Part shown: one piece after another, positions 2,573 through 51,315 of the stretch
Layout of the letters: every line of letters begins with the position of its first letter
Numbering within the stretch: position 1 is the stretch's first letter
Program-made: the position numbers and the translations under genes
The notes under the pieces: model-generated
Database searches by the model: none
Told to the model about the DNA's origin: nothing
Seen by the model: only the letters and a program-made list of their open reading frames with translations
Assembly (NCBI GenBank): GCA_017538365.1
Contig: JAFYIZ010000026.1
Location: 66,716 to 118,112 of the forward strand
DNA length: 51,397 nucleotides
Direction of reading: 5' to 3'
Origin: a bacterium
GTDB lineage: Bacteria > UBP6 > UBA1177

Positions 2573-3051
2573 TACTTTTCTCCATTCCAAACTTCATTTA
2601 TTTTTCTGACAAATCCTTTTGCTATCTTAAGTTCCGTTCCGTCTTCGGCGCGGACTACGAATTCTTCTTTGTCGTCATCGACCGAAACGAGTTCGCCCGT
2701 AAAGCGTTTTCTTCCCTCGACAAGTTCCGAAAGTTTGATTTTCAGCGTTTTTCCTATCTCTTCGTGAAGATCGTCCCACCTTCTGACCGGTCTGTCGAGA
2801 CCCGGCGAACTTACTTCAAGGTAGTAGCGGAAAGGAAACGGATCTTCCGCATCGAGAAAATCGCTCACAATCGGACTGAATCTGCCGCACTCGTCAAGCG
2901 AAATGCGCGTTTCAGGCGAAAGTGTGTCGAGATAAACTCTGAAAACGCCGTTCTGACCCGTCGGCAGATCGAGTTCAACTATTTTGAAACCCATCTTGTT
3001 TGCCAACGGCTCCAATTTTAAAAAAATATCCTTAGCTCTGCCACTCCACAT
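2572..3051 (-). CDS. rimP: Ribosome maturation factor RimP
   Basis: This 159-residue protein has the RimP layout. The N-terminal domain carries GFKIVELDLP and the conserved YYLEVSSPGLDRP motif; it is followed by a Sm-like C-terminal beta domain. RimP helps mature the 30S subunit. The gene begins the leftward operon and its stop overlaps the nusA start. The next ~200 bases upstream contain a possible sigma-70 promoter and an octamer-repeat element. Confidence 0.92.
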   Translation of the reverse strand: MWSGRAKDIFLKLEPLANKMGFKIVELDLPTGQNGVFRVYLDTLSPETRISLDECGRFSPIVSDFLDAEDPFPFRYYLEVSSPGLDRPVRRWDDLHEEIGKTLKIKLSELVEGRKRFTGELVSVDDDKEEFVVRAEDGTELKIAKGFVRKINEVWNGEK

Positions 3052-3128
3052 TCAACAACCTCACTCTTTAGATTAAAAACTGCGAAAAAGATGCAGAGAA
3101 ATGAGATAAAAAGAACCTCACGGCGCGC

Positions 3129-3156
3129 TATTTACCATTAAAAATGTAAAAATCAA
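3129..3156 (-). promoter_or_regulatory. Candidate sigma-70 promoter for the rimP operon
   Basis: On the minus strand TTGATT is followed after 16 bases by TAAATA, about 80 bases ahead of the rimP start in an AT-rich gap. This is pattern matching only. Confidence 0.35.
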
Positions 3157-3177
3157 ATTTTTATTTCATTAATATTG

Positions 3178-3243
3178 TTGCCGCCGCAGATATCTCGAAA
3201 TATCGAATTATCGTTATATCGACACGATTTACCGCGGCGGCGG
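3178..3243. repeat. Octamer-period repeat with GC-box flanks (copy 1)
   Basis: The gap between rpoD and rimP holds TTGCCGCCGC on the left and CCGCGGCGGCGG on the right. Between them run the octamers TCGAAATA, TCGAATTA, TCGTTATA and TCGACACG at a strict 8-base step (3195-3226). The same design recurs at 7096-7155 and 13673-13786 and, without full flanks, at 9602, 37263 and 40340. The complementary flanks could pair as a stem. Its function is unknown. Confidence 0.7.
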
Positions 3244-3248
3244 AAGAA

Positions 3249-8361: not shown

Positions 8362-9600
8362 GCAGTGATTTTCGCAATTTTTCTTTCATTTGTCTTTTTC
8401 GGCTGTCTGGAAACAACAAAGCTCGTAAGTTCAGGAACTTTTGAGAATGAAGGTGATAATTCGCCGAAGGATGATTCCGACGAAGTAACAAACGATTCTG
8501 ATGACGAAGAGACTGACAATGAAAGACCTTCCGGAGACAATGACCGTGAAAGACCTTCCAGCGACGATGAAAACGAAGGTGAAGAAGACGGTTGGAACGG
8601 CGAAGAAGACGATCCCGATGAAAGACCTGACAGAGACAACGACCGTCCGGGAAGAGACGAAGATTCTCCGTGGAACAACGACGACGACAATGTTCCCGTT
8701 GATCCTATCGACAGAGACAGTGACGGTGACGGAACTCCTGACAGTGAAGACGGTTGCCCTGCCGATCCGAACAAAACCGATCCCGGAACTTGCGGCTGCG
8801 GAGTTGCAGACAGCGATTCAGACATCGACGGTGACGGAATTCTTGACTGCGTTGACAAATGCAAAAACGACAAAAACGAAGATCAGGCCGATCTAGACGG
8901 TGACGGAATAGGCGATGCCTGCGACGAAGACATCGACGGCGACGGAGTTAAAAACGTAGAAGACAACTGCATTAAAGTAGCTAATCCGAAAGAATTGATA
9001 ACAACTTCTTCGCCCATGAAATGGGAACAGCCCGACCTTGATGAAGACGGAATCGGTGACGCCTGCGACGACGATATCGACGGTGACGGAGTTAAAAACG
9101 TGGAAGACAACTGCCCTAACAAGGCAAACGCCGAACAGACAGATACCGATAAAGACGGCGTAGGCGATGCTTGTGATCTCTGCCCTGAGGACAAAACCAA
9201 AACCGAACCTCAAACATGCGGCTGCGGTGTTGCAGAAACAGACAGCGACGGTGACGGAGTTCTTGATTGCATTGACAACTGCAAAGATGTGTTCAACGGT
9301 TCGCAGCTTGACAGCGACGGCGACGGTATAGGCGATGCGTGCGACCCGTCTCCTTTCGAAAAACCTGAAACGGCCGATGCAGATGCGGAACCGGCAGGTG
9401 ACAGCGATAGTGAAACTCCTGATGCTGACGAATCGAATCCGACAGACACGGATACCGAAAATCCAGATGAAAATGCAGACACGGATACTGAGAATCCAGA
9501 TGAAGATGCGGATACAGATACAGAGAATCCCGATACGGATGAACCTGATCCAGCAGGCACAGACGCAGAAAATACCGATGCCGATATTGATATGCCTTAA
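8353..9600 (+). CDS. Secreted lipoprotein with thrombospondin type 3 calcium-binding repeats
   Basis: This 415-residue protein starts with a signal peptide ending in a lipobox-like FFGC. A very acidic linker follows, and then, from about residue 120 to 335, repeated DxDGDGxxDxxDxC motifs (for example [12 protein letters not shown] and [14 protein letters not shown]). These are thrombospondin type 3 repeats, which bind calcium through the aspartates and pair cysteines between repeats. The C-terminal ~80 residues are another Asp/Glu/Pro/Thr linker with [11 protein letters not shown] units. It is probably a surface-exposed structural or adhesive protein. The repetitive DNA could make the length variable between strains. 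Confidence 0.8.
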
Positions 9601-9601
9601 T

Positions 9602-9625
9602 TCGGAATCCTTGAATCCAGAAATA
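9602..9625. repeat. Short degenerate octamer-repeat run
   Basis: TCGGAATC, CTTGAATC and CAGAAATA follow each other at an 8-base step in the 44-base gap before the MscS-type gene. This is a weak, short member of the octamer family and lacks the GC flanks. Confidence 0.4.
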
Positions 9626-9644
9626 AAATGCCGAAGAGGTAAAA

Positions 9645-10925
9645 ATGAAACCGCTTTTTAGAATCGTCACACCCGATATTCTCTCTGATTTTTTTGCTGC
9701 TCACACGCTGCTTCATGCTGTTTTCGACTTTGTCGTAATCGCGCTGATCGCGGCAGTTCTGACTTTTATCGCAAGAAAAATCGTAGACATAATCATAAAA
9801 TTCGCCGTAACACGGACAAAAACGAAGTGGGACGACGTATTTTTCAACCACGGCGTTTTTTCGAAGTTCGTGAACATGGTTCCGGCGCTCGTTTTCTACT
9901 GGTCGGCATTTTCGTTTGAACGCGGCGGTCACTGGCTGAAAAAACTCTCCTTCTGCATCATAATCCTTGTCATCATGGACATTCTGCGCGCTGCGAACAA
10001 GGCGATGCTTGAAATCTACGACACTTTTGAAATCTCGAAAGACCGGCCTCTCAAAGGGCTGATGCAGATAATCCTCATAGTCATCTACTGCATAGGCTTC
10101 ATCGCGATGGTTTCGATTCTTCTGGATAAATCCCCTGCCCTGCTGCTTAGCGGTTTCGGCGCTATGACGGCAGTTTTACTGCTAATTTTCAGAGACACGA
10201 TCCTCGGTTTTGTCGCGGGACTCCAGATCGCAGCGAACAATTCGATAAGAAAAGGCGACTGGGTCGTCATGCCGCAGAACAACGCTGACGGAGAGGTCAT
10301 TGATATCGCGCTTCACACAGTAAAAATCCAGAACTGGGACAAAACGATAGCCAACATTCCGACGCACAAGTTCATGGAAGAGAGTTTCATCAACTGGCGC
10401 GGCATGGTCGAATCTGGCGGCAGAAGGATAAGCCGTAATATGCTTTTCGACGTTTCATCCGTACGCAGACTTACCGACGAAGAGATAGAAAATCTCGGTA
10501 AAATCGACCTCATCGCAGATTATATCAATGCAAAAAAAGCCGAAATAGAAAAGTGGAATTCCAAAGCGGACGACACAACTCCGGTGAACACGCGCAGACT
10601 CACAAACATCGGAACTTTCCGCGAATACGCAAAGCAGTATCTTCTGCACAACGACCTGCTGAGGCATGATCTTCCGCTTTTAGTCAGGCAGATGCCGCAG
10701 ACGGAACACGGGCTTCCGCTTCAGATCTACGCTTTTACTAAGGCAACGGAATGGGCAGCTTATGAAGCGGTTCAATCCGATATTTTCGATCACCTGATTT
10801 CGACAGCAGTATTTTTCGGGCTCAGACTTTATCAGCAGCCAGGCTGGCATGACATTCAGATCGTTGCGGAAAAACTCGGCGGTAAATTAAATGCAGAAAA
10901 TAAAAAAACTGATCAAAACTCTTAA
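9645..10925 (+). CDS. Mechanosensitive ion channel of the MscS family (YbdG-like)
   Basis: This 426-residue inner-membrane protein has several transmembrane segments in the first ~190 residues. The pore-lining helix and beta domain of MscS follow (SGFGAMTAVLLLIFRDTILGF, then a QIAANNSIRKGDWVVM segment). The DGEVIDIALHTVKIQNWDKT and IPTHKFMEESFINWRGM blocks are typical of the larger YbdG/MscM subgroup. It opens on membrane tension to release solutes during osmotic downshock. Its last 35 bases overlap the start of the next gene, a sign of coupled translation. Confidence 0.85.
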   Translation: MKPLFRIVTPDILSDFFAAHTLLHAVFDFVVIALIAAVLTFIARKIVDIIIKFAVTRTKTKWDDVFFNHGVFSKFVNMVPALVFYWSAFSFERGGHWLKKLSFCIIILVIMDILRAANKAMLEIYDTFEISKDRPLKGLMQIILIVIYCIGFIAMVSILLDKSPALLLSGFGAMTAVLLLIFRDTILGFVAGLQIAANNSIRKGDWVVMPQNNADGEVIDIALHTVKIQNWDKTIANIPTHKFMEESFINWRGMVESGGRRISRNMLFDVSSVRRLTDEEIENLGKIDLIADYINAKKAEIEKWNSKADDTTPVNTRRLTNIGTFREYAKQYLLHNDLLRHDLPLLVRQMPQTEHGLPLQIYAFTKATEWAAYEAVQSDIFDHLISTAVFFGLRLYQQPGWHDIQIVAEKLGGKLNAENKKTDQNS

Positions 10926-19138: not shown

Positions 19139-20344
19139 TTATCCTCCATATACCTTTTTATATATGCGCTGTTTTTCAGCGTTTATGATTTCATCTTTCA
19201 AAACCACTTTCCCGGGAAGCAGCTTGAAATATTCAAGAACCCACGAATATTCTTGAAAAAATCTTTTGACCGCCTTTTTCGCCGAAGCGTGCGCCATATA
19301 GGACAAATAAGAATTGATCGAAGATCTCAGCTTTTTCAGATCCTCAAAGTCAAACTCCTTTATTTTCCTGACGAAATCCCATTTTTGCATAGTATTTCGG
19401 ACATTGTTGAGAACCCTTCGACGCGGAAGTCTGTAAAAAACGTGCTGCACATAGCCGAGAAAATTGATTCCGCAGCTGAGGCCGGCGAGTTTCACCGCCG
19501 GTTTAAGTTTAAGTTTTAGCTTTTCACGAAGAAAAACTTTGATTTTATTGAAATATTCTGCAAGTTTATTTTTGCTTTCGTGAATTACGACAATATCATC
19601 AACATAGCGGACGTAGCAGCGGATTTTGAGCGTGTGTTTTGCATATTGATCCAGCTCGTTTAAATAAACATTGGCAAAAAACTGGCTTGTCAGATTTCCG
19701 ATCGGAAGACCTTTGCCCTGTTCACAGTGAAAAAGACTTTTCTTGTCAGGCACAAGTTTCCATTCGCTCGCTTTTGCCTTATTGTAATACTTTTTCGTCG
19801 GATCGTGAAAAAGCAGGGTTTTGGCAATTCCGGCGACCTGCTCAGCTTTTCCGGGTTCCTTAAACTGCTTTTCCATTCCTTTTTTCAGAAGCTGCCACAA
19901 AATCGCCTTGTCGATAGACATGAAAAAGCTGGCAATATCGATCTGTAAAAAGAAAGCTCTGCGGCGGCCGTTATCGGTTACGCTACGCATAAAGTGTGCG
20001 ACTCTTTCGACGGCGGCAAGATTGCCTTTTCCCTTCCGACAGGCGAAAGAATCGAAAATGAAAATTTTTTCCCAGTATTTTTCAAGCTCTTCAACAAGCA
20101 GATGATGTACGATCCTTTCTTTGAAATCGGCTGCGAAAACCTCTCTCGGCTTCGGATTGCGGACAACAAAACAGATTGACTTGCCCGGCGTGTATTTTCC
20201 CGACTGCAAAGCCCTTGTCAGCCTGACAATATTCTGACTAAAACGCATGTCGAATTTCCGGGCGTTTGCCGTATTGCGCTTTCTGCGTCGGCAGCTGACA
20301 TAAGCCTTATATATATTTCGTGAAGCTAAAAACTCTGCGTTCAT
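19139..20344 (-). CDS. DGR reverse transcriptase
   Basis: This 401-residue reverse transcriptase has motif A (LQIDIASFF, ~133-141), the DGR-specific motif LPIGNLTSQ (~213-221) where most bacterial enzymes have QGxxxSP, and the catalytic YVDD (~247-250) followed by the LGY motif. In DGRs it copies the TR transcript with errors opposite adenines, and the cDNA replaces the variable repeat. There is no fused maturase or HNH domain, which argues against a group II intron. The ATG at 20344 overlaps the stop of the TR-bearing ORF (ATGA); the in-frame start four codons further upstream lies at the TR edge. It probably acts with the Avd protein encoded at 20574-20960. Confidence 0.93.
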   Translation of the reverse strand: MNAEFLASRNIYKAYVSCRRRKRNTANARKFDMRFSQNIVRLTRALQSGKYTPGKSICFVVRNPKPREVFAADFKERIVHHLLVEELEKYWEKIFIFDSFACRKGKGNLAAVERVAHFMRSVTDNGRRRAFFLQIDIASFFMSIDKAILWQLLKKGMEKQFKEPGKAEQVAGIAKTLLFHDPTKKYYNKAKASEWKLVPDKKSLFHCEQGKGLPIGNLTSQFFANVYLNELDQYAKHTLKIRCYVRYVDDIVVIHESKNKLAEYFNKIKVFLREKLKLKLKPAVKLAGLSCGINFLGYVQHVFYRLPRRRVLNNVRNTMQKWDFVRKIKEFDFEDLKKLRSSINSYLSYMAHASAKKAVKRFFQEYSWVLEYFKLLPGKVVLKDEIINAEKQRIYKKVYGG

Positions 20345-20577
20345 GGGCGGACGCACCTCACATAGTTCGTGTTGTTCTTACCGTTGTTGTTGACACTTCC
20401 ACTGCTATCGAAGTTCACGTTCCAAGCGTTACTCGCATAAAAACCAAGTATTCTCAGGAATTTATTATCGACAGCTCCGATCCTTCCGGTACGGATCTGT
20501 CGCAGCTCACGGATAAAAACCGGGAGCTGTATATGCGTCTCCGGCATCCTGATACAACCGCAGAAATGGACTCTCAT
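20341..20577 (-). CDS. Small ORF carrying the template repeat; DUF1566 remnant
   Basis: This 78-codon frame begins at an ATG overlapping the avd stop (ATGA), with GGGAGGTGG upstream. It ends in a TGA overlapping the reverse transcriptase ATG. Its last ~31 residues are the TR read in the same frame as the variable proteins (ASNAWNVNF...VRCVRP). The preceding part loosely follows the DUF1566 pattern (QLPVFIRELRQI next to WRLPTIDELRGI of the VR3 protein). I infer that it is a shrunken variable gene. It may be translated mainly to couple avd with the reverse transcriptase; a function for the peptide is not shown. Confidence 0.5.
   Translation of the reverse strand: MRVHFCGCIRMPETHIQLPVFIRELRQIRTGRIGAVDNKFLRILGFYASNAWNVNFDSSGSVNNNGKNNTNYVRCVRP
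20348..20438 (-). repeat. DGR template repeat (TR)
   Basis: This 91-base segment matches VR1 (21032-21122) and VR2 (43339-43429). Read on the minus strand it has 30 adenines, many in nine AAC codons (SNAW, NVNF, VNNNG, KNNTN). By eye it differs from VR1 at 7 and from VR2 at 12 positions, and all 19 differences are at template adenines. It lies between avd and the reverse transcriptase gene, the usual place. Confidence 0.95.
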
Positions 20578-20960
20578 TGAGGTATTCCACCTCCCTGATT
20601 CTGCCTGTTCACAAAATAATTGTGAAGTCTCTCGCACTGACCGAGCAGGTTAGTGGCCAATTCAGCCGACTTAAACCACGCCTCGTAGTTTCTAAAAGTA
20701 TTCAATTCTTCACAGACATTGAGCTTGATCTGAAGATCGGTTATTTTTCCCTTCAGATCCGCTAAAAATTCAGCTCTCTCGCATTCTTCGTAATTATTGA
20801 GCTTTGCAGTTTTGGCGAGGATTTCCGAACACATCGTTCTGAGTTCGCTTCCGGTAGTATATTTGCAATACCTCTCGAAACGGCGGACACATCTTTCAAT
20901 ATGCGTCATCAACTCAAAAGCGACATTGTAAATATCAAGTTTTTTCAAATGATCGAGCAC
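20574..20960 (-). CDS. avd: DGR accessory variability determinant (Avd-like)
   Basis: This 128-residue, all-helical protein (IYNVAFELMTHIERCVRRFER, FLADLKGKITDLQIKLNV) has the size, helix pattern and position of Avd, the four-helix-bundle partner that binds the reverse transcriptase and template RNA in DGRs. The start is a GTG at 20960 with AGGAG six bases upstream. The stop overlaps the ATG of the TR-bearing ORF. It lies between VR1 and TR, as in the Bordetella phage DGR. The call leans on context, because Avd sequences are divergent. Confidence 0.85.
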   Translation of the reverse strand: MLDHLKKLDIYNVAFELMTHIERCVRRFERYCKYTTGSELRTMCSEILAKTAKLNNYEECERAEFLADLKGKITDLQIKLNVCEELNTFRNYEAWFKSAELATNLLGQCERLHNYFVNRQNQGGGIPQ

Positions 20961-20970
20961 TTTTTTCTCC

Positions 20971-21003
20971 TTGCCCTACCGGGCAAATTGCGCTATCGCG
21001 CAA
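20971..21003. other. Tandem hairpins downstream of VR1
   Basis: TTGCCC-TACC-GGGCAA (20971-20986) and TTGCGC-TATC-GCGCAA (20988-21003) are two perfect 6-base-pair hairpins with 4-base loops, 29 bases past VR1. Hairpins or cruciforms just after the VR are known to be needed for DGR target recognition in the Bordetella phage. Related pairs follow VR2 and VR3, but none follows the TR. Confidence 0.75.
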
Positions 21004-21027
21004 AAAACCAAAAAAAGCGGTCATGGC

Positions 21028-22560
21028 CTACCGGACGCACCTCACATAGCGCGCGTAGCTCTTACCGTTGTTGTTGACACTTCCACTGCTATCGAAGTTC
21101 ACGCCCCAAGCGTTACTCGCATCTTTTTCGGAACCCGACCAATAATTATTGTTATCGGTTGCCAGTCCGAGGTTATTCCTTGCTCTCCATAAACCGCATA
21201 GTTCATTATTAACCGAGCTGTCTGCCTTATTTCCGGCGCAGCGCGGTAATCTCCAGTCAGTGTAACCTCCCAAGTTCAGGTTCCACGCATACTCTAAGGC
21301 TTGTGGCCACGTTTTTCCCGACACACCTGCCTTTTGAACCATGCTGATCTCAGCAAGCTCGGGGTATGTTTCCCGCATTGCGTCGGTCACGACAACTATA
21401 TCGGTACTCAGACCGGTATGGCTTTCAGCTGTAGCGATTACTGTTGGTTTAAAGTAAATTCTGAGCGTTTCGCCAGGATTGACCGTGATATCGCCGGTCA
21501 GCCATCTCGCCAGCATATAGCTTCCGGCAGCTTCAACACCTTCGGTCGTTACGGCCGTTTTTGCAACGAGCCCGGCCTCTCTCACCGTTATTGCAGCAGT
21601 CGAGTTGTTGGTGAAATCACGCACGTATGTCGCGTATGTTTTTCCTTCCAGAACAGAAAGTTTTGCGATTGCGCTGACCGAACTCATAGCCAGGTAAGAC
21701 AATTCCCCCGTCGAAGTCCCGCTCGCAATAAGCTGAGCGAGAGCATTGTCATCAGCACTTACAGCTGAATCACCTGATCCGACGATTATGCCCATATCTG
21801 TCACGCCTGCCGCACCGACACAGTTCGCCGCTTTCGCGAAACTCTGCCCTGTGTGTGACATTGACCCTGCAGCCGTGTTGCCCGCCATGTCCGTGAAGGT
21901 GTAGGCTGCCGCCGCAATATTCTGAGCAAAATTCTTGATCCAGTTCTTTGTAATAGCTTTCGATTCTGTCGCAGGAAAATTCAGTGTCCATGCTACTTCT
22001 ACAACCTTGCCGACACCGAATCCGAAAGCAGGCGTTACAGCTTCGCGGCCAAGCATTTTCCCTGAGCAGGAATAGAGCGCGATTTCGCCGATATTACCGT
22101 TCCCCCCGGTTATAGTCCTCGCTGTGTACAGTGTCACTCTTGTCGAGCCTGCAACGTCACTCATGGCCAGCAGAGTTATTGGAATTGTGTCGCTACTGAC
22201 AGAGCCCGATACCAGCGCGTTTGTCGGATAATTGATAAAAGGATGAATAAGTCCCGGCTGTTGTACATATACCGGAGCCGCTTTCATGCCGAGCATGACT
22301 TTCGGCGCACTTGCAGCATAACTGTCATTCCTTACGGCGATACGATAGCCGTTGACAAAATCTTCAATCATTCCTACAGTTAAGCTCTTCATCGGCTGGC
22401 TGCGCTTTCCGATGACGCGGCCTTTTTCATCGTAAGCTGTCAGCTCGATTTTCCCTTCTGGAGCGATCATCCGCTTGTCCGGACGGCTGCGCCTTACAAT
22501 CTTGCCGTTCCCGTCCAGAATTTCCCATTCGGCGGCAAAACCGAAATTGTGATCATTCAT
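21028..22560 (-). CDS. Tail fibre with diversified DUF1566/C-type-lectin-like C-terminus (VR1 protein)
   Basis: This 510-residue protein starts with a beta-rich virion segment (FAAEWEILDGNGKIVRRSRP). A long Ala/Thr/Val-rich fibre region holds two related ~150-residue stretches. The C-terminal ~120 residues are a DUF1566-type domain (TWPQALEYAWNLNLGGYTDWRLP, NNYWSGSEKDASNAW, YVRCVR). The DGR variable repeat codes the last ~30 residues. It follows the baseplate gpI gene, so it is probably the receptor-binding protein, and DGR variation would change host range. Variable residues replacing template Asn include Gly, Ser, Tyr and Arg; Ala replaces a template Thr. Confidence 0.85.
   Translation of the reverse strand: MNDHNFGFAAEWEILDGNGKIVRRSRPDKRMIAPEGKIELTAYDEKGRVIGKRSQPMKSLTVGMIEDFVNGYRIAVRNDSYAASAPKVMLGMKAAPVYVQQPGLIHPFINYPTNALVSGSVSSDTIPITLLAMSDVAGSTRVTLYTARTITGGNGNIGEIALYSCSGKMLGREAVTPAFGFGVGKVVEVAWTLNFPATESKAITKNWIKNFAQNIAAAAYTFTDMAGNTAAGSMSHTGQSFAKAANCVGAAGVTDMGIIVGSGDSAVSADDNALAQLIASGTSTGELSYLAMSSVSAIAKLSVLEGKTYATYVRDFTNNSTAAITVREAGLVAKTAVTTEGVEAAGSYMLARWLTGDITVNPGETLRIYFKPTVIATAESHTGLSTDIVVVTDAMRETYPELAEISMVQKAGVSGKTWPQALEYAWNLNLGGYTDWRLPRCAGNKADSSVNNELCGLWRARNNLGLATDNNNYWSGSEKDASNAWGVNFDSSGSVNNNGKSYARYVRCVR
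21032..21122 (-). repeat. DGR variable repeat VR1
   Basis: This segment aligns without gaps to the TR over 91 bases, with seven differences, all at template adenines (two in the first half and five near the gene 3' end). It ends four bases before the fibre gene's last base. The shared GC-rich tail GTGCGTCCG would be the initiation site for mutagenic homing. Confidence 0.94.
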
Positions 22561-42362: not shown

Positions 42363-42730
42363 CAGCAATAATCTGGATCTATACTCACAGAAAAGAAATT
42401 TTTATTACCTTTCTGGTAATTTTTTTCTTTATTTTGTGGTTTGTCATCGAAAGACAGGCCGACCGCATATCATCACAAAAGCAGGAAATTGCCAAACTGC
42501 GCGTGGAAATTGAGCAACTGCAATCCAAGATTGAGGATATGCAGGCAGATACCGCCGCCGTTGCAGCCTATTTAAAGCGCATTGAAAGCATAGATAATAA
42601 CCGTAAAACAGAGGTTAAAAAGAATGAAGAATGCGTATCGCACCGCGATCCTGATGCTTTTATTGACCGGCTCAATCAGCTGTTCGGCGTCTGCGCCGAT
42701 GAAGCCGGAAATCCGGCAGGCACTCTGTAA
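42359..42730 (+). CDS. i-Spanin-like (Rz) protein
   Basis: This 123-residue protein has an N-terminal membrane anchor (IFITFLVIFFFILWFVIE) and then a long coiled coil (IAKLRVEIEQLQSKIEDMQ), as in Rz inner-membrane spanins. The out-of-frame overlapping lipoprotein gene supports the assignment. With its partner it would fuse inner and outer membranes at lysis. Confidence 0.72.
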   Translation: MTAIIWIYTHRKEIFITFLVIFFFILWFVIERQADRISSQKQEIAKLRVEIEQLQSKIEDMQADTAAVAAYLKRIESIDNNRKTEVKKNEECVSHRDPDAFIDRLNQLFGVCADEAGNPAGTL

Positions 42731-43212: not shown

Positions 43213-43277
43213 TTTTGCCTCCGAAACAAAAAAACAGATTAAATTTAACATAAAATTTGAATTAGTCAAAAATCCAC

Positions 43278-43307
43278 GCCCTACCGGGCAAATTGCGCAG
43301 ACGCGCT
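43278..43307. other. Tandem hairpins downstream of VR2
   Basis: GCCC-TACC-GGGC (43278-43289) and a GCGC-AGAC-GCGC stem (43295-43306) follow the VR2 gene. They have the same layout as the pair after VR1, with slightly shorter stems. Confidence 0.65.
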
Positions 43308-43334
43308 AAGAAAAACAAAAAAAGCGGTCATGGT

Positions 43335-43934
43335 TTAGCGGACGCACCTCACATAGCTCGAGTTGTACTTACCGTAGTAGTAGACACTTCCACTGCTACC
43401 GAAGTACACGTACCAAGCGAAACTCGCACTATATTCGGCGCCTGACCAATACCAACGGTAATCTACAAGAATGCCGAGCGCTTCACTTGCCCGCCATATA
43501 CCGTGAAGCTCATTATTTGTAGTTTCATCATCCTCGTCACCTGAACACGTCGGCAGTCTCCAGTCGGCAAAACCACCTAATTTAAGGTTTTTCGCGTATT
43601 CCATTGCCTCCGGCCATGTTTTATCGGATACGGGCCGCATCTGTATCATCGAAATATTTTTCAATTCAGGAAACATCTTTTTGAGATCATCTGTGACGAT
43701 TATCACGCCGGGAACCTCGAGTTCTTTTTCTTCTTCGGTTGTTTTAACCGCCTGGTCACTATTAAGTTTTTGCATCGCAGCGAGAAAGCCGGCCTCATAA
43801 GCGGTATCGACCTCTTTCATCACTTTCTCAATAATTTTTTTAACAGTGTATTCTCTATCATCTGCCGACTCACAAATCCAGATGCAGATGCGGCCTTTAG
43901 CAGCATCTAAAAAATCCTGTTTTTTCTCATTCAT
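43335..43934 (-). CDS. DGR target protein 2 (DUF1566 domain, VR2)
   Basis: This 199-residue protein has no signal peptide. Its N-terminal ~80 residues are helical and charged (MNEKKQDFLDAAKGRICIWI). The C-terminal ~115 residues are a DUF1566-type domain (VPGVIIVTDDLKKMFPELKN, NLKLGGFADWRLP, WYWSGAEYSASFAWYVYF). The variable end is Tyr-rich where the template has Asn. The start at 43934 follows AGGAGG. It is homologous to the fibre C-terminus but not built as a fibre, and lies in the accessory region, so it may be a displayed or intracellular binder of unknown target. Confidence 0.82.
   Translation of the reverse strand: MNEKKQDFLDAAKGRICIWICESADDREYTVKKIIEKVMKEVDTAYEAGFLAAMQKLNSDQAVKTTEEEKELEVPGVIIVTDDLKKMFPELKNISMIQMRPVSDKTWPEAMEYAKNLKLGGFADWRLPTCSGDEDDETTNNELHGIWRASEALGILVDYRWYWSGAEYSASFAWYVYFGSSGSVYYYGKYNSSYVRCVR
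43339..43429 (-). repeat. DGR variable repeat VR2
   Basis: This 91-base ungapped match to the TR has 12 differences, all at template adenines. Several AAC codons are TAC (Tyr) and one is TTC (Phe). It is ~22.9 kb from the TR. Confidence 0.93.
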
Positions 43935-43947
43935 TTTATTCCTCCTT

Positions 43948-44232
43948 TTAAAACGGACCAAACTGACTGTCGAAGTCTTCATCATCGGTCGCTTCAGGCT
44001 GTTTCTTTGTTTCAGACATTATTTTTTCAGTCTCTCGCATGATACCCTCGAGTCTTACGGAAATTCTGTAAAGCTGGCTGGCTCTGATTTCCACCCTCTC
44101 AACCATCCCGTTTAAACGATTTATAAGTCGGGCGATAAGCATTTCAAGCCCTTTGTCTGCAAGCGATGCCACGAAGAAGCCTAATGCAAAAAAAGCCACA
44201 GCTATTACTGCAAAAAGCGCTAAATCTTTCAT
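43948..44232 (-). CDS. Small membrane protein
   Basis: This 94-residue protein has one N-terminal transmembrane helix (LALFAVIAVAFFALGFFVA), a helical middle and an acidic tail. It starts after a GGGAG site, just past the VR3 hairpins. Family unknown. Confidence 0.55.
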   Translation of the reverse strand: MKDLALFAVIAVAFFALGFFVASLADKGLEMLIARLINRLNGMVERVEIRASQLYRISVRLEGIMRETEKIMSETKKQPEATDDEDFDSQFGPF

Positions 44233-44244
44233 TTTTTGTCTCCC

Positions 44245-44276
44245 GCCCTCCCGGGCAAAATTGCGCTATCGCGCCA
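44245..44276. other. Tandem hairpins downstream of VR3
   Basis: GCCC-TCCC-GGGC (44245-44256) and GCGC-TATC-GCGC (44263-44274) lie just after the VR3 gene. The pattern matches the pairs after VR1 and VR2. Confidence 0.6.
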
Positions 44277-44295
44277 ATAAAACCCAAAATTGCGG

Positions 44296-44907
44296 TCAGC
44301 GGACACAGCGCGCGCTGCTGTTGGTCGTCTTACTGGTGTAGTAGACATTGCCATTTGAGAAATTGCAGAGCATAGCGTTCGTGGCCGAATACTCGGTGCT
44401 GCTCCAGAACCACTCATCATCGTCAGCAATGCCGAGAGCCTGTTTCGTCCTAAAAATACCGCGAAGCTCGTCTATTGTCGGAAGTCTCCAGTCGTCAAAA
44501 CCGCCCAGCGTCATTTTTTTCGCATAGTCCATAGACTCATCCCAAGTCATATAGTCAGAAGGCTCTTTCTGTATCATTTTGAGGTTTTTCAGTTCTGGAT
44601 ATTCCTTCTTGATCTCATCGGTGATAAATATCACGCCGGGAATTTCATAGATCTCTTCATCGTTGTCGACAAGCTTCTCCTCGGCCTGTTTCTCGAAGTT
44701 GTGAGAGCACTCTGACTCCATCTTAAGGATGTCTTCTTCGAGATCCCGCTGGTTGTCTTTAAAGAGATCTTTTACAGCATCGCTGGCGGTCACCCAGGCT
44801 CTATTGTTGCCGTGCTTATACCCTAAGATATAGCACTTCCACGACCACTGCGCGAACGCTGAATTTTCGTCGAGACCTTGTCTTTCACAAAACTCGTTAA
44901 AAGTCAT
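44296..44907 (-). CDS. DUF1566 protein related to DGR targets (VR3)
   Basis: This 203-residue protein has a helical N-terminal part (FCERQGLDENSAFAQWSW) and a DUF1566-type C-terminal domain (GGFDDWRLPTIDELRGIF, DEWFWSSTEYSATNA, NSSARCVR). It is homologous to the VR1 and VR2 proteins over ~115 residues. Its last ~25 codons keep the pattern of mutated AAC codons (ACC, AAC, AGC), but it differs from the current TR at non-adenine positions. It is either a former target or a target of another TR. Confidence 0.75.
   Translation of the reverse strand: MTFNEFCERQGLDENSAFAQWSWKCYILGYKHGNNRAWVTASDAVKDLFKDNQRDLEEDILKMESECSHNFEKQAEEKLVDNDEEIYEIPGVIFITDEIKKEYPELKNLKMIQKEPSDYMTWDESMDYAKKMTLGGFDDWRLPTIDELRGIFRTKQALGIADDDEWFWSSTEYSATNAMLCNFSNGNVYYTSKTTNSSARCVR
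44299..44390 (-). repeat. VR3, a diverged variable-repeat-like segment
   Basis: The 3' end of the VR3 gene aligns with the TR at protein level (SNGNVYYTSKTTNSSARCVR against DSSGSVNNNGKNNTNYVRCVR-like), but gaps and non-adenine changes are needed in the DNA. It is not a copy of this TR. Confidence 0.5.
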
Positions 44908-45521: not shown

Positions 45522-45767
45522 CTACACCTCCGACATCAGGTCGACAATTTTCATAGCTGTAATAAGATTGACCAGCGGATCGGCATCAACTTCCACTTTA
45601 ATAACGGCTATACTGGGATACAGCTCATACTTCACCACCACAGATTCTTCACCTTCATCAAGTCGCTTTTCAAAATAAAAAGTGCGCCCATCTGACGGAG
45701 CATGCTTTTTCTGCAATTCATTGAATTTTTCTCGTGCTTCTTTCTGCGTATCAAATCTTACGATCAT
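45522..45767 (-). CDS. Hypothetical early protein
   Basis: This 81-residue protein was not recognised. It has charged helices and a beta hairpin (VVVKYELYPSIAVIKVEV). Its start overlaps the XRE gene stop (TAATG), so it is translated with the regulator. Confidence 0.45.
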   Translation of the reverse strand: MIVRFDTQKEAREKFNELQKKHAPSDGRTFYFEKRLDEGEESVVVKYELYPSIAVIKVEVDADPLVNLITAMKIVDLMSEV

Positions 45768-46252
45768 TAGCGCACCTCCTCAAGTTCGTCCAGGCGGTGC
45801 TCGAGCATATCGATGCGCGCTTCGATGCTCGCCTGACGAGCGATCATAGCATCACAGAGCTCCACAAGCGGTCGACATTTACTTCTCGCCGTAGCGCGGC
45901 GCATTGAACGGCGTTCTGCAGCTGTGTCAGCATATTGAATGTTTTCCGGCTGGCGCTGGATCTTCTCTGCCTTTTCTTTGTCGACGGTAAATACCTCGAC
46001 AGGCTCAGTATCAACATCCTTTTTGATCTCTTCACGCATCTCTTCCGGCATGACCAGGCGAGTGCCGATTCCAGTCATGAGCCAGTTGATGTTCACGCCA
46101 AGCTCAGCCAGCGCAACAAAAAGAATCTGCGGAATCTTTGTCGCACCGCTTTCAATCAGAGAGTAATTCGACTGTTTCATGCCGATTCTTTCGGCCATTT
46201 CCGACTGCGTGAAGCCGAAAGCCTCTCTCAATTCCCTTAATCTCTCATTCAT
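45767..46252 (-). CDS. XRE-type transcription regulator
   Basis: This 161-residue protein has an N-terminal helix-turn-helix (AFGFTQSEMAERIGMKQSNY) that binds DNA, and a C-terminal helix (IEARIDMLEHRLDELEEV) likely for dimerisation. It could be the lysogeny repressor or an early regulator. It lies within the leftward early operon and not at the end of the genome, unlike Mu c. Confidence 0.72.
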   Translation of the reverse strand: MNERLRELREAFGFTQSEMAERIGMKQSNYSLIESGATKIPQILFVALAELGVNINWLMTGIGTRLVMPEEMREEIKKDVDTEPVEVFTVDKEKAEKIQRQPENIQYADTAAERRSMRRATARSKCRPLVELCDAMIARQASIEARIDMLEHRLDELEEVR

Positions 46253-47982: not shown

Positions 47983-48891
47983 TTACGCTAAAACAGCCTG
48001 TTCGACAGCCGCTTTTACAAGTTTTGCCGTAAACGCAATATTCGGGTTCAGTTCCTGTAATCTCTGAATCTCGAATATCGTATTTTCAAGCAGCCTCATA
48101 TTGCCTTTTGTGCCCTCGTAAAACGCCTTTTTAACGGCGACCGAAGAGCCTTTGAATACCTGTTCGATAAGGCTTGCCGTTTCGTCTTCGCTGAGCGCCT
48201 TGACGCGGCTGTTCGCCAGGCATCTTGAACTCAGATACTCGTTTTTCGTTCTCGTTCCGATAAGCGCGTATTTGAGCGTTTCGAGGCCGACAAGCAGAAG
48301 TCCGGTATGTGAAGCGTTGAAAACCACCGTTCGCAGCGTCTCAAGTGCTCTGTGATTGAGGTGCTCGCATTCGTCAACAATAATGAGTTTTCCTGTGTTT
48401 TTGAGCTTTTTAATGATTTCTTCTTCAAGTTCGTACTGGTTTGTTTTCGGCGTGCAGCCCAGCTTGTCTGCAAGATTCCGCATAAGCGTCCGCGCCGTGA
48501 AAGACGGACGGGCTTCAATATAGTAAGCGTTACGGTTGTATTTGCAGTATTCAAGACACGCCCTTGTTTTGCCGACACCCGCAGAGCCGTAAATCAGCCC
48601 CATCCTGCGTGAAGTGTGACACAGATGCGCAATATTCATAACGATATTTGCAGTCTGCGTCTCTACAAACGGAAGCACCGGATCAATGTTTTTCATAATT
48701 CTTTCAAGTTCGGTGCTGCAACCTGAAACAATCTTTTTTTCGAGCTGCGTAGTGTCCTTAGCCGCGTAGTTTCCGTTTACGAAACCGTTCATTGCTGCCG
48801 TCGAAACACCGCACAGCTTCGAGATCTGAGCCTGCGAATAGCCCGCCTTAACGAGCTCGTCAATCAGCTCACGTGCGCTTTTGTTAATCAT
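47983..48891 (-). CDS. Transposition ATPase, MuB-like
   Basis: This 302-residue AAA+ protein activates the transposase and selects target DNA. It has an N-terminal helix-turn-helix (YSQAQISKLCGVSTAAMNGF), Walker A GSAGVGKT (~102-109), Walker B LIIVDECEH (~169-177) and a C-terminal helical domain. Its ATG lies inside the last codons of the transposase gene (8-base overlap). Confidence 0.92.
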   Translation of the reverse strand: MINKSARELIDELVKAGYSQAQISKLCGVSTAAMNGFVNGNYAAKDTTQLEKKIVSGCSTELERIMKNIDPVLPFVETQTANIVMNIAHLCHTSRRMGLIYGSAGVGKTRACLEYCKYNRNAYYIEARPSFTARTLMRNLADKLGCTPKTNQYELEEEIIKKLKNTGKLIIVDECEHLNHRALETLRTVVFNASHTGLLLVGLETLKYALIGTRTKNEYLSSRCLANSRVKALSEDETASLIEQVFKGSSVAVKKAFYEGTKGNMRLLENTIFEIQRLQELNPNIAFTAKLVKAAVEQAVLA

Positions 48892-51061
48892 CCTTGCCCT
48901 CCTCCGAAATAATATACTTCTTGAACCGGATTATCTTCGGTTCTTCATCTTCTTCGCCTCCGGCAGCCGCGCCGTGATTTCGACGGCGGCTGATTGCGGC
49001 TGAATTAACCCCTTTATTTTCATTTTCTTTTACTTCTTTCGCGATGCCTGAAAATCTTGTCAGCTGGATTTCAGTCGGACCCGCCGGATCTTCAATGCTG
49101 ATTCCCTTTGCTTCGCATGCCGCTTTATGGTTTGCTTTAACGCTGATTTCCATATATTCTAAAATTTCTTCAGGTGAAAGCGGGTCGCCGACAGCTTTTT
49201 TCAATTCGTTTTTAGCGTATCTGACTATTCCGTTTTTGATTTCCATCTGCTGTGCCAGAATCTGTCTGTTTTCTTCCGAATCGTCATACATATCGACTTC
49301 CGGCTGCATTTCGGCAATGTCGATAAACGCGCCCAGCGCGAATCTTTTTTCTTTCTGGTTCCAGTCAGCATAAAAACAGTAAGCGGTTTTCGGATTTTCA
49401 GGGTCGATTCTGAGATAAAAATACTGGTCGGATCTGTCGAACTGAGCCATCCATGCCGCCCAGTAACCTTTTTTGGTTCTTGTGTCTCTGAGCACATTCC
49501 TGAAAACGCGCACAGGCTCGCCCGTTGAAGCGCAAAGCATCGCAAAATCTTCATTTTTCGGCGCTCTCATAACAGGCGCTTCACTCTGCCATATACCGAC
49601 AGGCGAAAGCCCCGCCTGTTTGCCTTCTTCAAAAACTCTGTGATTGTATATCTCAATGAATTTTTTAACTTGATCCGTCCATTCATCGAACTTTAAAATC
49701 GGCAGTTTTTCGGGTGTTTCTTCGTCACCCTGTCTGTTTGCCTTTGCCATTTTAAGTTCGATCTCTTTTGTTTTATCCGGGCGTTTTTTCCCGTCACTTC
49801 CGACATAGCCCGGCATGAATTTATCAAAATAGTTGCGGAAAATTCCGAAAACACGCTCGATCGGCTTTGTCTGAGAGTTGTAAGGAATCGCGAAGCGCAC
49901 ATCAATGCCGAGATAATGAGTGATTGTCGGCGCGTAATCTTCAATATAATCACTCGTTCTGCACGGCCTGCCGCCGCCGATGTCTTTACGTCTGTAGTCT
50001 TTACCGTTATCAAAAAGAAGGATCTTCGGAATGCCGAAATTTTTAAAGGATCTTTTCATTGCGATAATAATGTGGTTGCCGTTCGGCTCATCCAGAAAAA
50101 GATCGTAACCAACTATCATCCTGCTCTTATAATCGCAAAGCGCGGAGATCCACGGCCTTACCAGTTTGTTGTCAGCCGTTCGCACAAAGAAGTCGAATTT
50201 TGCATGGTCGGCAACAAAAATCTGGCCGCATTTAATAGAATCCCAGTTCACCGGAACAGAATAGCTGTGATACCGTTTCCAGAAATCCTTGCCTTCACGG
50301 TACATCGCTAACACCTGCGGCGGTACAGTTTTCAATTTACGGCGGAACGCTTCAGCGCTCGGGAAGTCGTCGGACGCCTGAATTTGACCGTTTTTGAGTG
50401 CGTAACCTCTCGCTACTTCCCGACACGCCGAAACGCTCGTTGTAGTTCCCTGAACGCCGTAAACCTTCAGGAAAATATTGTAAAACCATTCATCTTTGAT
50501 TGTCGAATCGCCTTTACCGTGACCGTAATGCCCGGCAAGCGCAGCAGAGCCCGATTCCTTATAAGTTTTGATTATCCTGTATAAAGTGCGCTCAGTCAGA
50601 GGCTTCTTGCTCTCATGCTCAAGATTCCACTGATTCAGCGCGCTTTTCAGCGCCTTTCCCTTCAAATCCTTAAAATATTCAACAATCTTGATATTTTTCT
50701 CAAAAATCTCTCTGTTATACGCCGCCAGACCCGCCGGATTCGTTTCCGCCGCAACCTCTCCTTTATTCCGCGAAATTTCATCGCCGGATTTCAGCTCTTT
50801 GCCGTTTTTCTCTCTCGCCTCACTTGAGAGAGCCGGGGTGAGGTCGGAGCCGGTTTGAGACGGGCTCTGTTTCCAGTATTCAGCCTGTGCTTTAGCCGGA
50901 AGGCTGTAAAGATCAATCTGATAACTCTTGCCGCCGTTCCCGCCGCGCGCGCTCACTTGCCGTGTTTTATATACATTGTCAGCGCATTGATTGCGTATGT
51001 AACGCTGTGAAACACCGAGTAGTTCGGCGGCTTTTACGGTTGAAATCCAGAGCTCAGACAT
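48884..51061 (-). CDS. DDE transposase, MuA-like
   Basis: This 725-residue transposase has an N-terminal winged helix (LWISTVKAAELLGVSQRYIR), end-binding helices, and a RNase H-fold catalytic core with Asp285 (VADHAKFD), Asp351 (LLFDNGKDY) and Glu402 (KPIERVFG). The spacings of 66 and 51 are close to those of Mu (D269, D336, E392). A C-terminal region contacts B. It starts at 51061, where ATG overlaps the stop of the upstream gene (TAATG); the GTG six bases earlier is less likely. Residues ~73-88 (DLTPALSSEAREKNGK) come from a dispersed repeat. Confidence 0.95.
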   Translation of the reverse strand: MSELWISTVKAAELLGVSQRYIRNQCADNVYKTRQVSARGGNGGKSYQIDLYSLPAKAQAEYWKQSPSQTGSDLTPALSSEAREKNGKELKSGDEISRNKGEVAAETNPAGLAAYNREIFEKNIKIVEYFKDLKGKALKSALNQWNLEHESKKPLTERTLYRIIKTYKESGSAALAGHYGHGKGDSTIKDEWFYNIFLKVYGVQGTTTSVSACREVARGYALKNGQIQASDDFPSAEAFRRKLKTVPPQVLAMYREGKDFWKRYHSYSVPVNWDSIKCGQIFVADHAKFDFFVRTADNKLVRPWISALCDYKSRMIVGYDLFLDEPNGNHIIIAMKRSFKNFGIPKILLFDNGKDYRRKDIGGGRPCRTSDYIEDYAPTITHYLGIDVRFAIPYNSQTKPIERVFGIFRNYFDKFMPGYVGSDGKKRPDKTKEIELKMAKANRQGDEETPEKLPILKFDEWTDQVKKFIEIYNHRVFEEGKQAGLSPVGIWQSEAPVMRAPKNEDFAMLCASTGEPVRVFRNVLRDTRTKKGYWAAWMAQFDRSDQYFYLRIDPENPKTAYCFYADWNQKEKRFALGAFIDIAEMQPEVDMYDDSEENRQILAQQMEIKNGIVRYAKNELKKAVGDPLSPEEILEYMEISVKANHKAACEAKGISIEDPAGPTEIQLTRFSGIAKEVKENENKGVNSAAISRRRNHGAAAGGEEDEEPKIIRFKKYIISEEGKDD
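50805..50845. repeat. REP-like dispersed element inside the transposase gene
   Basis: This is an ungapped match of 35/41 bases to 36281-36321. Here it is translated in frame between the N-terminal winged helix and the next domain, giving DLTPALSSEAREK. Confidence 0.6.
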
Positions 51062-51315
51062 TACCACTCCATTCCGTCAATTTCGTTCGACTGCTCTGTT
51101 CCGTTTATTCCGTTTAATTTTATCGCCGTATTTGCCGGTACTTTCTTGTCATCCCACCAGCTTCCGCAGTATTCAGGTGCACCTTCGTATCTTTCGTAGC
51201 CGCAGACTTTCTCGGTATCTTTATCCATGTCTCTGATGACCATATAAACCATAAGAGCCGCCAGAATCGCCATCGCGATAAAACCTAAAATGTTCTCCTT
51301 AGTCGTTTTACTCAT
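51061..51315 (-). CDS. Small membrane protein upstream of the transposase
   Basis: This 84-residue protein has one transmembrane helix (ILGFIAMAILAALMVYMVI) and a polar tail with two Cys (VCGYERYEGAPEYCG). Its stop overlaps the transposase start. Family unknown. Upstream bases 51316-51397 hold a GGAGG leader; no gene is evident there. Confidence 0.5.
   Translation of the reverse strand: MSKTTKENILGFIAMAILAALMVYMVIRDMDKDTEKVCGYERYEGAPEYCGSWWDDKKVPANTAIKLNGINGTEQSNEIDGMEW

Follow-up and report, generated by a model that had tools for sequence, protein, structure and literature searches.

Organization of the Mu-like prophage and its DGR cassette

The window, i.e., the whole stretch of 51,397 nucleotides analysed here, covers positions 66716-118112 of contig C25 in the near-complete genome of a UBP6 rumen bacterium; related genomes come mostly from ruminant guts, and one relative of the same genus is UBP6 bacterium UBA1209. 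The prophage in this region is Mu-like, as indicated by MuA, MuB, GemA and Mu-type head genes. Its early block, on the minus strand, contains MuA (48884-51067, directly behind which the contig ends), MuB, GemA, DUF3164, a late-activator-like gene and an HTH repressor. The plus-strand genes (terminase, portal, minor head, neck and Rz) extend to position 42730 and are convergent with the early strand. A minus-strand tail block—protease, sheath, tape measure and baseplate—is followed by a fibre gene carrying the variable repeat VR1 and by the DGR cassette. A second repeat, VR2, resides in a gene at the distal end of the early strand, after a third Lcl_C gene and a gene for a 94-aa protein, with short gaps in between. 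An earlier note on this DNA had assigned the VR2 gene to an accessory block of the prophage, and this placement was borne out by the genes that precede it in the same orientation, namely MuA, MuB, GemA, DUF3164 and regulators. The relevant features are:

19139-20356, minus strand: intact DGR reverse transcriptase (RT), 405 aa, motif YVDD (Pfam RVT_1, 1e-16)
20347-20438, minus strand: template repeat (TR), overlapping the 5' end of the RT ORF
20574-20960, minus strand: Avd-like accessory protein, 128 aa, in a position conserved in relatives
20966-21022, minus strand: 3' recognition flank of VR1, TGACCGC plus tandem hairpins with 6-bp stems and loops GATA and GGTA
21028-22560, minus strand: first target, a 510-aa fibre-like protein with VR1 at its C-terminus and Lcl_C at residues 415-510
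43273-43328, minus strand: 3' recognition flank of VR2, TGACCGC followed by two 4-bp GC stems with loops GTCT and GGTA
43335-43934, minus strand: remote DGR target gene, encoding a 199-aa soluble protein (Pfam PF07603, E 6e-11)
43338-43429, minus strand: VR2, variable repeat of the remote target, with 12 of 12 differences from the TR at template adenines
43948-44232, minus strand: 94-aa protein encoded between the paralogue and the VR2 gene, with a single TM segment at the N-terminus followed by a helical tail
44238-44292, minus strand: 3' flank of the third Lcl_C paralogue, TGACCGC plus tandem hairpins with loops GATA and GGGA
44296-44907, minus strand: third Lcl_C paralogue, 203 aa, with a recognition flank and a VR that is not TR-derived

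The RT is an intact enzyme of the DGR type: its motifs YVDD and LPIGNLTSQF are invariant across 8 relatives, and its best PDB match is the reverse transcriptase 8ub7 (E 1e-34). The Avd-like protein, for which no match was found in Pfam or among PDB sequences, is about 48% identical to the copy in the sister genome G001, and BLASTP matched it with the protein annotated as Avd in phage Magia (E 1e-6) and with its G020 counterpart (E 7e-15). These weak but significant matches, together with the conserved position, support its assignment as an Avd. The gene of the first target adjoins tail and baseplate genes.

VR2 is derived from the template and carries its own recognition flank

An ungapped comparison of VR2 (43338-43428) with the TR (20347-20437) revealed 11 differences in 91 nt, all of them at TR adenines, which make up 29 of the 91 positions—the chance probability of this outcome is 7e-7. 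Position 43429 adds a twelfth change (A>G), giving 12 differences in 92 nt. The earlier note had reported 12 differences over 91 bases; the adenine-only pattern it described holds, while its count was off by one base. Changes at non-adenine positions, which it had named as evidence against its own claim, are absent at this locus (0 changed). VR1 (21031-21121) differs from the TR at 7 adenines and by one C>G at the 3' edge, such that VR2 has indeed diverged further than VR1, as had been stated, and the coordinates likewise agree with the 22.9 kb given for the separation between the TR and the remote target. Moreover, an adenine-masked pattern search of the whole 2.32-Mb genome, allowing ≤3 mismatches and using the reversed pattern as a control, returned the TR, VR1 and VR2 as the only TR-like copies. 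The reversed pattern had 0 matches, and a chance match as the source of VR2 was ruled out by this control.

The VR2 flank is homologous to that of VR1 (repeat D3). At the TR, the counterpart reads TGAACGC and lacks hairpins; an IMH-type site with a hairpin is hence found at the VRs and is absent at the template. The same C-for-A distinction between VR and TR occurs in most DGRs of the other UBP6 species examined, with one VR reading GGCCGC. The VR1 flank folds as DNA with -14 kcal/mol (z -4.3), and the VR2 flank with z -2.0. Loops GATA, GGTA and GGGA match the GRNA consensus that matters in BPP-1 (PMC3240598), while the VR2 loop GTCT breaks this rule. With stems of 4 bp vs. 6 bp at VR1, the VR2 flank is the weakest copy, and these shorter stems, combined with the non-GRNA loop, imply that the site may be weak.

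Taken together, a gene of the early block with a soluble product contains a repeat that stems from the TR, has changed at adenines only and is followed by a recognition flank of its own. Because the differences at both repeats fall on adenines, the 3' flank is common to both and no other TR copies exist, a single TR with two prophage targets—as the earlier note had proposed—is supported by our analysis, and one intact set of RT, Avd and TR appears to serve both a fibre gene and a non-fibre gene.

The remote target is a leaderless protein with a C-type-lectin fold

The ORF of the remote target can begin at 43985; we take the protein to be 199 aa long based on an ATG at 43934 with a properly spaced AGGAGG. 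An N-terminal helical part of about 60 aa, for which no related sequence was found, precedes an Lcl_C/C-type-lectin-fold domain at about residues 75-199. The domain scored 43.1 bits against PF07603 (cut-off 34.9), its best PDB fold match was 8q4e, the C-terminal domain of Legionella Lcl (E 2.4e-6), and the AlphaFold2 model had pLDDT values mostly >90 in the lectin domain and of 50-70 at the N-terminus. Both profile and fold place the VR2 domain in the Lcl_C/C-type-lectin group, with about 53% identity to the Lcl_C domain of the tail-fibre target. Leader and TM prediction detected neither a signal peptide nor a TM segment—in a control set, leader-bearing DGR targets scored clearly hydrophobic—confirming the leaderless nature claimed before. 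The description of the gene as non-fibre also stood, given its 199 aa, the lack of any fibre or fibre-anchor domain and its location away from the tail block; the protein has neither the tail-block position nor the fibre or anchor N-terminus of a Mtd-like receptor-binding protein. A defence-family search of small proteins that included the remote target gave no match.

The TR encodes ...N-A-W-N-V-N-F-D-S-S-G-S-V-N-N-N-G-K-N-N-T-N-Y..., where variable Asn codons alternate with invariant hydrophobic ones; as read from this pattern, the alternation is what a single exposed β-hairpin face would require. With 9 A>T and 3 A>G substitutions, VR2 converts many template Asn codons to Tyr or Phe, and the Tyr-rich character attributed to its variable positions is evident in the stretch VYYYGKY, produced by A>T and A>G changes. 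Since VR1, unlike VR2, carries mostly A>G changes, a pure enzyme bias fails to explain these tyrosines.

Several observations concern the adjacent genes. The third Lcl_C paralogue (44296-44907), which the earlier note had missed, was rejected as a live third target, based on a TR identity of 47/97 and the lack of adenine bias against the TR of G001; it may be a target no longer in use or else a stable template paralogue. Stable paralogues next to diversified ones are a known companion of multi-VR DGRs (PMC3521204). The 94-aa protein has an acidic C-terminus ending in DEDFDSQFGPF, resembling an SSB-type tail. Consensus promoter matches occur near the VR2 gene, although such matches alone are no evidence of function. 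Codon windows are suggestive only of a mosaic VR2 gene, with a 5' part that may be paralogue-like and a 3' part that may be VR1-like.

Relatives of the prophage and other DGRs of UBP6

The VR2 gene was retained in no relative among the sister genomes and IMG/VR. Sister genome G001 contains the same DGR, with a fibre 42% identical and only two TR-like sites; its early block lies on a contig different from, and not joined to, that of the DGR cassette. No VR2 orthologue was present on the MuA-bearing contigs of G013 and G001. Additionally, P0001 had no match among GenBank phages, and IMG/VR scans with the VR2 protein, the portal and the TR pattern yielded no close relative phage.

UBP6 genomes also harbor DGRs that do not look like phage elements (G007:C34, G005:C46, G009:C18, G013:C86 and G014:C78; L065, L068, L069, L070 and L072), and most of their targets are lipoprotein-like surface proteins that bear a leader and measure up to 898 aa. 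Many further Lcl_C genes in such genomes partly match the non-adenine positions of the TR. A host-chromosomal-looking UBP6 DGR (L067, G005:C14) has a second VR in a 141-aa Lcl_C protein (2819-3244) with a signal peptide, encoded directly after the RT gene. In L074 (G007:C49), a 307-aa zinc-ribbon plus Lcl_C protein (8739-9662) is followed by a GACCGC and hairpin flank, and no RT was found in the 20-kb stretch; judging by 43/52 non-adenine TR matches, it is a possible in-trans target of the C34/C35 DGRs. The TR/VR pair of L071 (G013:C18, 9547-10274), with no RT nearby and a 1-nt shift in the VR, is a remnant DGR, another being intact on C86. Finally, an Lcl_C gene in L100 (IMGVR_UViG_3300035670_000618, 9565-10026) has, as its 3' end, an Asn-rich TR-like sequence just before the RT; a separate VR was not found in this record.

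Small lectin-fold targets recur in the early operons of other phages

A full-length scan of those phage records in which a TR was defined gave a single further case of a remote VR at >10 kb, the siphovirus G031 (IMGVR_UViG_3300047202_000009). Its VR1 belongs to an Lcl_C gene of 242 aa in the neighborhood of capsid and portal genes. The second VR is found at a distance of 21.4 kb, in a gene of 139 aa flanked by those for a DNA helicase and SSB, a split that parallels the one in the window. This second VR keeps 67/70 non-adenine TR positions, with 23/38 adenines changed, and the 139-aa product is leaderless, with an N-terminus resembling a zinc ribbon. The G020 cassette, with a 174-aa leaderless target, sits between RecE/RecT and a replication initiator, and those of G022, G025 and L098, with two targets each (129-182 aa), lie among methyltransferase, ParB-like and replication-initiation genes.

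The closest database RTs are those of Burkholderia phage Magia and Shewanella phage QDWS (44.7 and 47.3% over 65-71% of the query). QDWS carries three VRs (adenine share of 11/11, 15/15 and 11/12), one of them beside RecT and about 5.8 kb upstream across the origin of the record. Three VRs were likewise found in Magia (8/8, 11/11 and 15/15), one of them 7 kb off and beside an exonuclease gene; the VR search identified gp46 as the third target, in addition to the short targets gp47 and gp57 of the 2021 announcement, where a change of host range was suggested (PMC7883833). In Pseudomonas phage Haboob, whose RT is likewise among the closest in isolated phages, two VRs lie between the CI repressor and Bet. 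No leader or TM segment was predicted in the small targets of G031 (remote), G020, G022, G025, L098, QDWS, Magia and Haboob. The Mu-like phage BalMu-1, whose RT is related, carries one VR only, in the tail block.

Small leaderless lectin-fold DGR targets recur in the early operons of unrelated phages. The remote target of the window fits the class we propose—199 aa, leaderless, with a lectin fold and on the MuA/MuB strand, its expression timing being read from gene position only. The suggestion in the earlier note that the second product may be cytoplasmic and not an adhesin is greatly strengthened by the leaderless targets in RecET/replication operons of independent phages; its other suggestion, an injected binder, is unsupported.

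Discussion

On the basis of these results, VR2 is probably a real second DGR target, the most likely role of its product being that of an intracellular, hypermutable binder belonging to a recurrent early-operon class. Under the mechanism we propose, TR RNA would be copied by the error-prone RT together with Avd, with adenines becoming random bases, and the cDNA would take the place of one of two repeats: VR1, which terminates the tail-fibre gene, or VR2, which terminates a small gene 22.9 kb off. Distance on the prophage would be irrelevant, since both sites have the same 3' recognition flank. The variable residues of the remote target are expected to alternate along one β-hairpin strand of the lectin-fold domain, yielding a hypermutable protein that would bind some factor of the host or of a competitor, for instance a defence protein. 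We infer from the sequence features that VR2 is still active, and that its product would act in the cytoplasm and bind a host or competitor factor with benefit to the phage. Phage early operons house recombination, takeover and counter-defence genes, and the location in such an operon favors an intracellular binder over an adhesin.

Alternative explanations need to be weighed against this interpretation. The remote target might be a virion protein—a shaftless lectin-fold adhesin or decoration—such that both targets would serve adsorption. A missing signal peptide is compatible with a virion component, since phage fibres also lack one; the similarity of the two Lcl_C domains (about 53% identity), the first target of G031 adjoining capsid and portal genes, and the two-target DGRs of gut phages (tentaclins), where both products are regarded as receptor-binding (PMC10743442), point in the same direction. 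We consider this reading unlikely, because the VR2 gene occupies the early strand beside regulators, outside the tail and head blocks, its product has no fibre-anchor domain, and the phages with the closest RTs keep such proteins in RecET/replication operons, far from tail genes. The prophage setting, the CI-like repressor gene close to the VR2 gene (45767-46252) and the Haboob cassette directly beside CI would agree with a protein acting in the lysogen, e.g., by binding incoming phage components (superinfection exclusion) and not in lytic takeover; however, there is no sign of a separate lysogenic promoter, and such a role seems quite unlikely.

VR2 could also be a retired target, frozen as one useful Tyr-rich variant, as the neighboring paralogue, which keeps the flank and has no TR-derived VR, seemingly was earlier. 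The weak VR2 hairpins and the 9 of 12 changes that are A>T and lead to Tyr or Phe, which could mirror one selected variant, are consistent with retirement. Neutral ageing, however, would add changes at the non-adenine positions, all of which are unsubstituted, and RT, Avd and TR are all intact, making this scenario very unlikely. The homology between VR1 and VR2 extends past the VR over about 148 nt, as it might if VR2 had arisen by ordinary duplication or gene conversion of VR1 and were no retrohoming target itself. Yet a copy of VR1 should inherit VR1 changes, whereas those of VR2 differ in position and base, affect adenines only (P 7e-7) and include bases absent from both the TR and VR1. 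Plain duplication was rejected on these VR2-specific adenine changes, and we regard such an origin as extremely improbable.

Returning to VR2 as a second target, the system shares several traits with that of BPP-1 (Bordetella Mtd): a TR, adenine mutagenesis, an RT homologous to 8ub7, an Avd-like protein, a C-terminal VR in a C-type-lectin fold and 3' GC hairpins with mostly GRNA loops (PMC3240598). It differs from BPP-1 in having two targets, one of them 22.9 kb off in a non-tail gene, in the Lcl_C subtype and in its tandem hairpins of 4-6 bp vs. stems of 7-10 bp (PMC3240598). Multi-VR DGRs accounted for about one in seven in the DiGReF survey of 2012, with targets up to >370 kb away (PMC3521204), and Thiohalocapsa PB-PSB1 combines cytoplasmic host targets with action in trans (PMC10907252). 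These systems resemble ours in serving several targets from one TR, with remote VRs, adjoining VR-less paralogues and some host targets predicted to be cytoplasmic; their targets are host or paralogous families, whereas the phage TR described here spans tail and early programmes. Tentaclin DGRs also pair a single phage TR with two different C-type-lectin targets, but both lie inside the cassette. Magia and QDWS match the window in their small leaderless lectin-fold targets within an early recombination operon, in serving more than one VR (three in each of them) from one TR and in having one VR apart from the cassette, and differ in that no tail-fibre target was detected. The remote target shares fold and family with the C-terminal domain of Legionella Lcl; Lcl itself is a surface adhesin, whereas the protein described here is a predicted soluble early phage protein.

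Phage DGRs have been explained almost wholly as host-range machines on tail fibres, and the largest survey sorted viral targets into tail proteins and unknowns (PMC8144416). Remote VRs, multiple VRs and the short targets of Magia were already known. In the literature searched, DGR targets of early operons were not treated as a class, nor was a split between a fibre and an early gene reported, and both look undescribed. As a more tentative proposal, which we hold possible but would not presume, several temperate phage lineages may aim DGRs at intracellular early proteins as a repertoire against host defence or competitors—here coupled to tail-fibre variation via a single template. The occurrence of early-gene targets in similar phages suggests that the machine is used inside the cell as well as for host finding. 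QDWS, Magia and Haboob are isolated phages with such cassettes, which renders the question directly testable. Genes that belong to two different expression programmes can be supplied by one template. If small early proteins do form a second target class that recurs among phages, then phages would also evolve binders fast inside the cell, amid the defence arms race.
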